Below are positions 13,219-16,821 of a stretch of 64,000 nucleotides of DNA, in pieces. How positions within the stretch are numbered: position 1 is the stretch's first letter; each line of letters begins with the position of its first letter. This DNA is from Flavobacteriaceae bacterium (GTDB taxonomy: Bacteria; Bacteroidota; Bacteroidia; Flavobacteriales; Flavobacteriaceae): the NCBI GenBank assembly GCA_030726725.1, contig JANRDC010000004.1, forward strand, positions 124,001 through 188,000, read 5' to 3'. Below the pieces are notes generated by a model. It was not told the origin of the DNA and made no database searches. It saw nothing but the letters and a program-made list of their open reading frames with translations. Position numbers and translations under genes: made by a program.

Positions 13219-15632
13219 CAAAATCCGCAATTCAAAAAATTCTGGTCATCACTTCCAATCGGAGGTCCATCAGGCAAATCGGGTAGCTCGGAAACTGTTC
13301 CTGCCGAAGCGCTGCTCCCTAAAGATTTTAAATGGTTCAGGTATAAGGAATGTACGCTTTCAGGATTTTTTTTATTCACCCACGATTTGGACAATTTGGC
13401 CAAATGATCCTGAGCCATCAAACGAACTTGAGGAAAAACTGACTCATGGACGGACAATGCATAAACATAAGACAGATATCGGGTGCCGATCATTTCTTGT
13501 ATCGATTGGTGATAGGCCGAAGCGTGCTGACGACTAAACAAATAATCACTGGTTTTGTCCAACAATTCGTCCAATCCTAGCTGCTGGTCATCCATCCATT
13601 TTTGTTGAACAACACGGCCAATGCGTTCTGGTTGGAACATAAACCCAAAGGCAATATCCGCTGCTGTTACCGCAGCAGTAAACGGATCAAAGGCACTACC
13701 TAATTGGCTTTTAAACGACTCCCTTCCTCTTTGATCGCCAAAAACTCGAGGTGGAAATAACCCTAGTTTGTCAGCGGGAATGGCGAGTTGTTCAGCATCC
13801 AATACAGAGAACAAACCATTTAATGCTTTTCTTTGAGCATCTGCTGAAAGCGGTGCAACATCTGTTTCAACTCCACCTTTTACCTGATAAGCATAAGTCA
13901 GCGCCCCCAACTGCTTGGCCACAGCTTCGGTCTGGTATCTATGCCAAAAAAATAAGGGGACAAATACATCTTCTAGCCCACTAGCGGTACCCTGTTCCAA
14001 GTTATCCCAGGAAAACCCATTCATGGCTGTCTTGCGCACCGCCAACATGTCGCTGAGCTCGTCTACTACATCCATACCGTTATCCCAGAGATGTGCCGAT
14101 GCACTAGGACTTGAGGCAGGACGTGCATCTTGATCCGTCAAATACCTCAACCCACTGGTGTAAGCATGATCTAAAATCTGAGTCAATGCTTTCTCTTGGT
14201 CCTCACCCGGAGCTACCGTGCTGTACGCATAAGCAACAGTCACTTTATCCCATGTGCCAATACCCGTTTCATATGCGTTATCTAAAGAGACTTTACCGTC
14301 AACAAGGGATAACTGCGGATGTGGGTAATCCATCACTGAAGATTTGTTCCTGGTACTGGCTGCATAGTTATGGGCAAATCCCAAAGTATGTCCAATCTCG
14401 TGGGCTGACAATTGTCGGATACGCGACAAAGCAAAGTCCATCAGTGCTTTCTTGGAGCTAGCACTGGCAAAGGGTTGCTCGGACAAAGCTTGAGCGATCA
14501 TATAGTCTTGTCGGATGCGCAAACTGCCCAAGGAGACATGCCCTTTAATGATCTCTCCAGTTCTAGGATCTGTGATACTGCTGCCATAGCTCCAACCTCT
14601 GGTCGAACGATGGACCCACTGAATCACATGATACCGCACATCTAATGGATCAATACTATCTGGAAGCACTTCAACCCTGAATGCATTTTTAAAACCCGCC
14701 GCTTCAAAAGCCTCATTCCACCAAGCTCCCCCATCCAACAAAGCGGTTCTAATCGGTTCGGGTGTGCCGTTGTCCAAGTAATAAATAATGGGTTTCACCG
14801 GTTCGGATACTGCGGCTTGAGGATCTTTTTTCACTAGACGATGCCGGGTGATCCACTTTTTGACAATGGGTTGATCCACTGGGGTCGCGTAATCCATATA
14901 ACTAAATGGATAAGCGCCACTTCTGGGATCGTAGGCCCTTGGTGTATACTGATCATCCGGAAGTTCAATAAAGGAATGGTGTTGAAAAACAGTGACCAAT
15001 CCAGGTTCAGGGGTTACCGAGCGAATCCATGCTCCTGTAGGTGTGCCCTTAAAGGTCAACATGACATCCATCTCAATGTTTTTGGGAAATGATTTAGTTC
15101 GTTCACTGTTCAAAGCGCTTTTGGACAAGTCCAGACTGTAACTTCCCTGCTTAGCACTGGCTAAACGCGCTGAAACTCCATGAGCATCTTGCAATAAAAA
15201 ATCAGTGAGCTCAATAATCAGGTCACCCTTTTCATGGCCTTTAACCTCAAAACCATAGCGCACGGACTTGGCAAACGCCTGTTCAACCGACGCCTTCTCC
15301 AAGGGGTTATTGGTCAAAGCGCGAAATGCCAAATTGGGTTGCACCAAAAACACGCGTTGTCCCCTTTGTTCGAAGTAAACGACTTGTTCGTTACCTAATT
15401 GTCCTCGGTCTAAGCCTATATCATTGCTGCCTATCCCCTGACTGAGCGAATAGACATAAAGAAATGATTCTTTTAATCGCTCTTGAGGAATACGCGCATA
15501 CAATCGGTTTAACCCAGCGTCGTAATAGGTATCGAAATAACCCTTGCGCAACACTGCCTGGGGATTCTTGGCGACCCACTGGGCGCTGATGGTTTGGGCC
15601 ATAAAAAACGTGAGCAATAGCAGTCGTCTCAT
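13218..15632 (-). CDS. Secreted zinc-dependent metalloprotease (DUF5117/DUF4953-type)
   Basis: An 804-residue exported protein. The signal peptide is [18 protein letters not shown], with cleavage after SAQ. The zinc site is [11 protein letters not shown] (His411, Glu412, His415, His421), the extended HExxHxxGxxH of metzincin-like enzymes. It lies in the arrangement characteristic of large Bacteroidota zinc-dependent metalloproteases: an N-terminal beta-rich DUF5117-like region with [14 protein letters not shown] and a C-terminal DUF4953-like region. It probably acts in the periplasm or outside the cell. ATG 15632 is chosen over the upstream in-frame start at 15662, which would bury the signal peptide. 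It is translationally coupled to the threonine aldolase gene, although no functional link is obvious. Confidence 0.82.
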
Positions 15633-15690
15633 AGTTGAATGATTTGTTCTAAAAATAATCAAAATGACACGTGTAGCGAGGGTTTATTAC

Positions 15691-15698
15691 TACTTTTG
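15691..15698 (+). promoter_or_regulatory. Promoter of prfB (TACTTTTG)
   Basis: TACTTTTG matches TAnnTTTG exactly and lies 15 nt before the prfB ATG at 15714, giving a leader of roughly 10 nt with no Shine-Dalgarno sequence. Confidence 0.6.
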
Positions 15699-15713
15699 CA
15701 CAAAATTATTCCT

Positions 15714-16821
15714 ATGGTTACCACAGAGATCACCCAAGATCTGATTAAACGCCTCGGTGCGTTAAGGAGGTATCTTTGACATCGATCAGAAAAGAATACA
15801 ACTGATCAACGAAGAAGAAAAAGCTGCAGCACCTGACTTTTGGGATAGTCCTAGAAAAGCTCAGGAGCAGATGAAATTCATTCAATCGATTAAATCCTGG
15901 ATCACTGATTTTGACTCAGCCACCCAAAAGGTAGCTGACGTAGAGGTGTATCTTGAGTTTTTTAAAGAAGGGGCTGTTACAGAACAAGAGCTGGATGATG
16001 CGGCAATAATAGCCACAGAACAAATCGAAGCGCTGGAGTTCAAAAACATGCTCTCTGCAGAAGCTGATGAGTTTGATGCTGTACTTCAAATTACTGCAGG
16101 AGCTGGAGGTACAGAAAGTTGTGACTGGGCATCTATGTTGATGCGTATGTACCTGATGTGGGCCGAGAAAAAAGGATATAAAATCAAAGAACTCAATTTT
16201 CAAGAAGGAGAAGTCGCCGGAGTTAAGACTGTCACCTTAGGCATTGAGGGCGCCTATGCATTTGGTTGGCTTAAGGGAGAAAACGGCGTGCACAGATTGG
16301 TGCGTATCTCGCCATTTGATTCCAACGCAAAACGCCACACTTCATTTGCTTCTGTGTATGTCTATCCCATGGTGGACGACACCATAGAAATTGAAATTAA
16401 TCCGGCTGATATTTCCTGGCAATTTGCCCGTTCAGGTGGTGCAGGTGGACAGAACGTGAACAAAGTAGAAACCAAAGCCATTCTTACCCACCACCCTACC
16501 GGCATTGTGATCCATAACTCTGAGACACGTTCACAATTGGACAACAGAGAAAATGCCATGCGATTGCTCAAGTCTCAACTGTACGAAATCGAATTGCGCA
16601 AGCGCATGGAAGCTCAAAATGAAATTGAAGCCTCAAAAATGAAAATCGAATGGGGTTCGCAGATCAGGAACTATGTCATGCACCCTTATCAACTGGTCAA
16701 GGACGTGCGCACAGGGGTGGAAACCGTCGAAGTAACCGACGTGATGAATGGCGCCCTAGATCCATTCTTAAAAGGCTTTTTAATGTTGAATGGGCAAAAT
16801 ACAGAGCCAGATTCGATTTAA
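15714..16821 (+). CDS. prfB: Peptide chain release factor 2, with programmed +1 frameshift
   Basis: RF2 releases the peptide at UGA and UAA codons. The gene is read as 15714-15776 joined to 15778-16821, giving 368 residues. The first 21 codons ([15 protein letters not shown]...) end at CTT followed by an in-frame TGA (15777-15779); skipping one base gives GAC ATC GAT and the remaining frame. RF2 hallmarks are the stop-recognition tripeptide SPF (about residues 199-201) and the peptidyl-hydrolase loop GGQ in [13 protein letters not shown] (about 244-246). If called without the frameshift, the protein would wrongly appear to start at 15871. RF2 normally controls its own frameshifting by UGA termination efficiency. 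Confidence 0.96.
15765..15780 (+). promoter_or_regulatory. prfB programmed +1 frameshift site
   Basis: AGGAGG (15765-15770), TAT, CTT, TGA and C form AGGAGGTATCTTTGAC, the canonical RF2 recoding element: an internal Shine-Dalgarno-like sequence 3 nt upstream of the slippery CTT, and a UGA followed by C (weak termination context). It differs from the E. coli element by one base in the purine tract. Confidence 0.95.

Follow-up and report, generated by a model that had tools for sequence, protein, structure and literature searches.

We propose that the programmed +1 frameshift in the gene for RF2 (prfB) of Bacteroidia involves an additional cis element, namely a short hairpin at a fixed distance upstream of the slippery codon, which would lie at the mRNA exit of the ribosome and probably supplements or replaces the duplex between the internal Shine-Dalgarno (SD) sequence and the anti-SD of the 16S rRNA. 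We regard the predicted structure itself as almost certainly real and its connection to frameshifting as very likely, while a stimulatory mechanism is the probable reading of what it does. Four things are evident at the level of sequence, namely the anatomy of the element, its conservation beyond the needs of the encoded amino acids, its covariation across a class-wide set and the way its occurrence follows both the frameshift and the state of the SD.

The window analyzed here is a stretch of 64,000 nucleotides from a Flavobacteriaceae assembly (1.73 Mb in 31 contigs, 98% complete), whose nearest relatives are MAGs such as UBA3440 (RF2 identity 95%). As an earlier note on this DNA had correctly recognized, it holds an RF2 programmed frameshift, with an ATG at 15714 opening 21 codons that run into CTT-TGA-C and AGGAGG exactly 3 nt before CTT (Table 1). 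Reading prfB through the +1 shift yields a 368-aa RF2 that scores 473 bits against TIGR00020 (cut-off 370), and the classical features of such sites are all present, namely RF2 encoded across the shift and CTT-TGA-C with an SD 3 nt upstream. By these features the gene is an autoregulatory RF2 +1 frameshift site, for which both the frameshifting and its response to RF2 are predicted. With at most two mismatches allowed, AGGAGGTATCTTTGAC has one match in the window, where 0.02 would be expected, and AGGAGGNNNCTTTGAC has a single occurrence in the whole 1.73-Mb assembly. Directly upstream of prfB, TACTTTTG (window 15691-15698) fits the Bacteroidota -7 promoter box, TAnnTTTG, which would imply a very short 5' leader for prfB, and TATCTTTG within the frameshift site also conforms to it.

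What the earlier note had overlooked is a predicted hairpin, AACGC-CUCGGU-GCGUU (15748-15763), with a single base between its end and AGGAGG. Taken alone, the fold of this hairpin is no better than that of dinucleotide shuffles (z -0.19). Rfam returned nothing above the gathering threshold at 15600-15900, with four chance matches (best E 3.1), and membership in an Rfam family was rejected on that ground. A longer SD extending into GCGTTA was also rejected, as the tail ACCTCCTTTCT pairs with AAGGAGGT only.

Table 1. Features of the prfB frameshift region, in window coordinates
Feature	Position	Strand	Remarks
prfB ORF0, ATG to CTT, 21 zero-frame codons	15714..15776	+	
Predicted hairpin, 5' arm AACGC	15748..15752	+	RNAfold -4.8 kcal/mol
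Predicted hairpin, loop CUCGGU	15753..15758	+	RNAfold
Predicted hairpin, 3' arm GCGUU	15759..15763	+	outer base at -11 from P-site codon
Internal SD AAGGAGGT	15764..15771	+	core AGGAGG 15765-15770; A at -10 adjoins hairpin
E-site spacer codon TAT	15771..15773	+	
Slippery CTTT, premature stop TGA, then C	15774..15780	+	CTT 15774-15776, TGA 15777-15779, C 15780
Main RF2 frame (+1), from GAC through TAA	15778..16821	+	

We then examined a first set of 138 prfB loci (110 + 28) from Flavobacteriaceae and near relatives, in which two genomes (G003 and G048) gave no prfB match of RF2 strength and five loci with the TGA out of frame (L006, L015, L034, L037 and L092) were filed as lacking the frameshift. 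The grouping of the loci passed over L045, L092 and L138, so that G016 has no hairpin value on the RF2 tree. Codon choice around the site is strongly constrained: among the 69 distinct sequences with an intact SD, the Ala codon preceding TTR-AGGAGG is invariably GCG, a codon whose usage in the same genes is 0.109, and the Arg codon nine bases upstream is CGC in 68 of the 69 (usage 0.205). These two codons are complementary, and in the window's gene they lie in the predicted arms AACGC/GCGUU. A stem of at least 5 bp ending at -11 is seen in 27/56 SD-intact Flavobacteriaceae, against 2.41 in shuffled sequences (maximum 7), with the remainder having mostly 3 bp. The SD-weak members show such a stem in 6/29 cases (1.85 shuffled, maximum 6), and it was absent from all 23 prfB genes of the first set without a frameshift (1.58 expected; the 23 such genes of the class-wide draw described below were left out). 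Swapping 3' arms within the family had no effect (z 0.3), which is uninformative as the arms hardly vary. On the RF2 tree, with the threshold relaxed so that 3 bp suffice, 23/23 SD-intact, 5/25 SD-weak (one of the 25 being the misfiled G055) and 0/9 no-frameshift genomes have a stem ending between -13 and -11; of five independent pairs, too few for significance, about 3.9 show hairpin and SD changing together and none shows the opposite. In two of the loci filed as lacking the frameshift, L034 and L037, the stretch from -15 to +4 reads TTA-AGG-AGA/AGG-TTT-CTT-GAC, a single-frame RF2 with an SD-like remnant that is likely to be the fossil of a lost frameshift.

Beyond the family, a class-wide draw of Bacteroidia gave 89 loci, 66 of them with the frameshift; as these are mostly loci matching near the site, they give no prevalence. 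The test set comprised 59 distinct SD-intact sequences, one of them from Flavobacteriaceae, of which 46 have a stem of 5 bp or more whose end falls exactly on -11, as opposed to a mean of 6.95 and a maximum of 15/59 over 300 synonymous shuffles; in the downstream parts of these genes, the fraction of in-frame windows with such a stem is 0.062. The placement is precise to the nucleotide: measured against synonymous shuffles, the stem score has a z of 13.8 for stems ending at -11 but of -0.1 one base on, at -10. The stems differ in their letters (AGGGAU/AUCCCU, AGGGAA/UUCCCU, AGAGAC/GUCUCU, AAAGCC/GGCUUU and AGCGC/GCGCU) and all of them end at -11. Swapping 3' arms among the genomes of this set lowers the stem score (z 6.6), and none of 300 swaps equals the real value. 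In register -37, which covers all 59 sequences, 76.9% of cells are paired, a value reached by 0/500 shuffles and compared with at most 45.4% in slid versions; the covariation score is likewise equalled by 0/500 and the number of cells changed on both sides by 6/500, whereas the two counts that shared ancestry should affect least, those of pairs changed on both sides (97/500) and of further pair types (38/500), are not significant. Register -41 (n=17, mostly picked for longer loops) is 80.4% paired (0/500) with covariation at 1/500; its other counts are 270, 4 and 386 of 500, those for pairs changed on both sides (270/500) and further pair types (386/500) being non-significant in this partly hand-picked set. 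Register -40 is weaker (cells paired, 46/500). All these shuffle nulls take related sequences as independent.

A replication test for the -11 position, written down before 39 new loci were fetched, recovered the stem in 19/26 distinct SD-intact sequences, against 2.06 (maximum 7, 200 shuffles), with an MFE z of -8.3, and in 15/21 once its five Flavobacteriaceae (four with the stem) are set aside, some of the remaining genomes sharing a genus with earlier ones. Two of these loci (L396 and L404, both labeled "weak") are not the prfB site, and one locus was dropped as a repeat (L409 being unlisted). Outside Bacteroidota, 7/11 proteobacterial sequences have a stem at -11 (1.87 expected, maximum 5), of 7-8 bp in four alphaproteobacteria and a betaproteobacterium, while E. 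coli and Enterobacter have 6 bp; none was found there in Proteus, Aeromonas, Acinetobacter or a Pseudomonas-phage record, nor in any of four further sequences, from three Bacillota and one Enterococcus-phage record. Other classes of Bacteroidota have it in 4/11, equal to the null maximum of 4. The base at -10, between stem and SD, is A or G in 140/140 loci with an intact SD from the family and class-wide sets taken together (excluding L139) and T in L422 and E. coli. A conserved hairpin, putatively stimulatory, is juxtaposed to the shift site. An IMG/VR viral contig (L369) encodes an RF2 relative of 46% identity, the one such relative from the viral-contig scan, in which a script search found no frameshift site.

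These observations bear on whether the stem, instead of stimulating the shift, damps it or affects mRNA stability or initiation, an explanation that we consider very unlikely. It would be in keeping with the poor frameshifting of F. johnsoniae (PMC12421855), and we infer the sign of the hairpin's effect; however, the stem is not enriched in prfB without a frameshift (0/23), it is tied to the SD and the slip site to the nucleotide, and designed upstream hairpins stimulated +1 shifting in vitro (PMC6321510).

A second stem position came to light in genes that have lost the SD. In 31/138 loci of the first set CTTTGAC is kept without an intact SD, and these show no excess of stems at -11. Instead, a stem lies over the former SD (z 9.7 at -6 and 8.3 at -7; 0/500 arm-swaps as good), as in GCCUUG-ACAAAC-UAAGGC-ACUAU-CUUUGAC and GCUUAAG-UACG-CUUAAGC, reaching 9-10 bp in L013, L016 and L025. 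At least 5 bp ending at -6/-7 are present in 16/29 SD-less sequences versus 2.65 (maximum 9), the other 13/29 falling short of 5 bp, and in 1/23 genes without a frameshift. In a replication fixed beforehand, 8/10 distinct new sequences, close relatives of the first set, showed the stem against 0.50 (maximum 3). These ten derive from 30 loci, of which eight from already-sampled genomes were excluded, leaving 22 new ones that comprise five chance matches outside prfB, seven repeats of known stretches and the ten distinct sequences. The underlying pattern, AVVCAVTATCTTTGAC, has matches in 93/299 family genomes, which is not a count of SD-less prfB because 5/22 of the inspected loci were chance matches outside the gene. 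On the RF2 tree, in which one genome is misfiled, the SD-weak state requires 12 changes, six of which well-supported branches make unavoidable.

The two stem positions allow an alternative to be weighed in which the hairpin acts as an insulator that sequesters upstream sequence and so keeps the SD free for the anti-SD. The co-occurrence of stem and SD speaks for it, as does a competing stem that uses the SD bases themselves (CCUU/AAGG, -22 to -7), which was observed in many SD-intact Flavobacteriaceae (z 10.1 at -7; at least 5 bp at -6/-7 in 21/56, against 6.52 and a maximum of 16). However, the class-wide sequences show no excess of this competing stem (z -1.2 at -7), and SD-less genes carry a hairpin on the former SD that would be needless for insulation, making the insulator improbable. 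The competing stem itself could be an evolutionary step to an SD-replacing hairpin, or a switch.

We next considered the SD and its partner on the ribosome. The earlier note had held that gene starts here lack an SD, which stands within the window, where an SD-like 5-mer precedes 1/50 starts of ORFs of at least 120 aa (n=50, with the most upstream ATG assumed as start), but not genome-wide, as rpsU on contig C31 is SD-led, with AAAGAAAGGAGGT preceding its ATG. A duplex with the 16S tail reaches -7 kcal/mol or stronger at 2/50 window starts, compared with 3.4% of random stretches, and mean pairing is -0.59 at window starts versus -2.12 in random stretches. The bS21 of this genome has Tyr54, as counted on its sequence. 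SD-less window starts, an SD-led rpsU and bS21 Y54 are together the markers of Bacteroidia-type sequestration, which is itself predicted for this organism. In having an SD-led rpsU and bS21 Y54 the window's genome is like F. johnsoniae with its bS21-dependent rpsU system (PMC9976891), which, unlike prfB, concerns initiation and not elongation.

Concerning the 16S 3' end, whose CCUCC the earlier note had proposed to verify, the window's assembly has no 16S gene, and the motif is present in a congener: the 16S of the same-genus genome G543 ends ACACCTCCTTTCT, with CCTCC, and its anti-SD region reads ACACCTCC. As the congener's tail has CCTCC, bS21 has Tyr54 and rpsU is SD-led, the window's organism probably has an anti-SD and uses an SD at one gene start at least. 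The AGGAGG site would form a duplex of -12.4 kcal/mol with the relatives' tail, ACCUCCUUUCU. A 16S-end pattern with an open anti-SD matches in 161/397 family genomes, and among the matches listed the tails read ACACCTCC as in G543, except for G563 (ATACCTCC, core kept), G592 (C21:201387-201413; ACATCTCC, CCTCC altered, ATCTCC) and G035 (L158; ATATATCT, CCTCC altered). The 25 CCTCC-bearing tails, from 20 genomes and five second copies, were selected for CCTCCTT and hence give no frequency; the rest of that 30-locus 16S set consists of L161-L164, without a 16S 3' end, and L158 from G035, without CCTCC. In many Flavobacteriaceae (L140-L169) AGAGAAAGACGAC follows the 16S end and is possibly a processing signal.

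Many Flavobacteriaceae (L001, L170-L257) have a second bS21 gene of distinct type and without an SD beside the SD-led one, and in a few genomes of the family all bS21 genes are SD-less. Among genomes whose prfB has lost its SD, 20/25 have a bS21 gene without an SD, against 7/23 of the others (Fisher p 0.001; G055, L139, is misfiled as SD-weak in this comparison). A link between this paralogue and the prfB SD was nevertheless rejected, as it is gone on the RF2 tree (about 1.1 pairs versus 1.0 opposite among five independent pairs), and the association looks like shared ancestry.

The genome G035 provides a natural experiment. Its full-length 16S ends GGCTGGAATATATCTTTTCT, without CCTCC (tail AATATATCTTTTCT), and its single bS21 gene has no SD. 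Its prfB (L137) keeps CTTTGAC with AGACGC in the SD place, and an 8-bp stem, CGUCUUGG-GUCA-CUGAGACG, ends at -5 over the former SD. This is what one would predict if the hairpin replaces the SD, as seen in one MAG. It also bears on whether the classical mechanism suffices, with AGGAGG pairing with a 16S tail that is freed either in the elongating ribosome or where bS21 is missing, and the hairpin being incidental. The strong pairing with the relatives' tail, the CCTCC of the congener and the combination of bS21 Y54 with an SD-led rpsU, as in the F. johnsoniae system (PMC9976891), are all compatible with that account, which nonetheless leaves unexplained the position-fixed stems of varied sequence, the SD-less frameshift sites with stems in the SD place and the retention of the frameshift site in G035 without CCTCC; we therefore regard it as unlikely to be the whole mechanism.

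Returning to the hairpin as a supplement to or replacement of the SD-anti-SD duplex, we envisage two arrangements. In SD-intact genes, i.e. those of the window, of most SD-intact Bacteroidia sampled and of several Proteobacteria, a stem of 3-8 bp would refold with its 3' arm ending at -11, directly 5' of the SD. From there it may stack on the helix of SD and anti-SD, keep the mRNA in place and favor forward slippage from CUU to UUU; alternatively, it may act when the 16S tail stays bound. In SD-less Flavobacteriaceae a different stem ends 4-5 nt further downstream, at -6/-7, and this intramolecular duplex would occupy the place of the SD-anti-SD duplex and act instead of it. We infer that the stem forms on the ribosome, stimulates rather than damps the shift and does so by stacking and pushing. 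A minimal E. coli prfB cassette works well without the hairpin, which counts against a role for it.

The prfB sites of E. coli and F. johnsoniae share with the window's the CTTTGAC, the SD 3 nt upstream, the early UGA and the RF2 product, and that of F. johnsoniae, described as AGGAGGUAUCUUUGAC (PMC8710568), is the same as the window's, letter for letter from AGGAGG to C. The prfB of F. johnsoniae UW101 also has the same predicted hairpin, as AGCGC-CTTGGT-GCGTT lies within the published primer prZM53 (PMC8710568). Accounts of these two genes, in the sections drawn on here, name the SD, the spacer, the slip site and the following C, and no hairpin. The earlier note had posed the paradox that an SD-like sequence should stimulate the shift in bacteria that sequester their anti-SD; this is correct and, as a question, had already been published by authors who counted the frameshift in 523/726 Bacteroidia and supposed other cis-acting elements or trans factors (PMC8710568). 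The choice that the note left between a free tail and another mechanism is now sharpened by a concrete second element, the hairpin at the SD. A survey of 12,753 genomes cites Naeem et al. 2024 for low efficiency in F. johnsoniae (PMC12421855).

The closest precedent is the work of Huang et al. 2018 (PMC6321510), who replaced the SD upstream of CUUUGA by a designed hairpin and observed, with 70S ribosomes and only in the absence of RF2, a +1 stimulation of about 60% of that by the SD. Like the natural stems, these hairpins lie 5' of CUUUGA, and an action confined to the absence of RF2 would be a further shared trait; the natural -6/-7 stems in particular resemble the SD-replacing design. The designed ones, however, consist of a 12-bp GC-rich stem replacing the SD in a reporter, whereas the natural stems have 3-10 bp and stand beside the SD or where it used to be. 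For bypassing in T4 gene 60, a 5' stem located at the mRNA exit has been proposed to pull on the message (PMC5009743 section 36), an idea akin to ours in that a stem there moves the ribosome relative to the mRNA, although gene 60 involves bypassing of a long gap and not autoregulation. In general terms, the possibility that minor hairpins upstream of frameshift sites have been ignored has also been raised (PMC10885494). We found no description of a natural prfB hairpin in the open-licence literature, including the relevant parts of PMC12421855, PMC13245932, PMC8710568, PMC3711429, PMC10885494 and PMC5009743 section 36; as far as checked, the hairpin is new and the SD puzzle itself was already known.

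A broader picture, which we advance only tentatively, is that RF2 frameshifting in Bacteroidia is mainly hairpin-driven, with the SD serving as a helper that was repeatedly lost and replaced by the hairpin in Flavobacteriaceae, in G035 together with loss of the anti-SD, and that the textbook RF2 cassette is perhaps missing a described part, the same hairpin being predicted in several Proteobacteria, E. coli among them. RF2 autoregulation is a model of programmed frameshifting, and a hairpin conserved at a set distance from the slip site would be an additional component of that model as well as a natural counterpart to the designed hairpin stimulators. The hairpin matters for annotation tools that detect prfB frameshifts via the SD. 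It is also a concrete candidate for the cis element supposed for Bacteroidia (PMC8710568), and may explain how the frameshift works where ribosomes hide their anti-SD.
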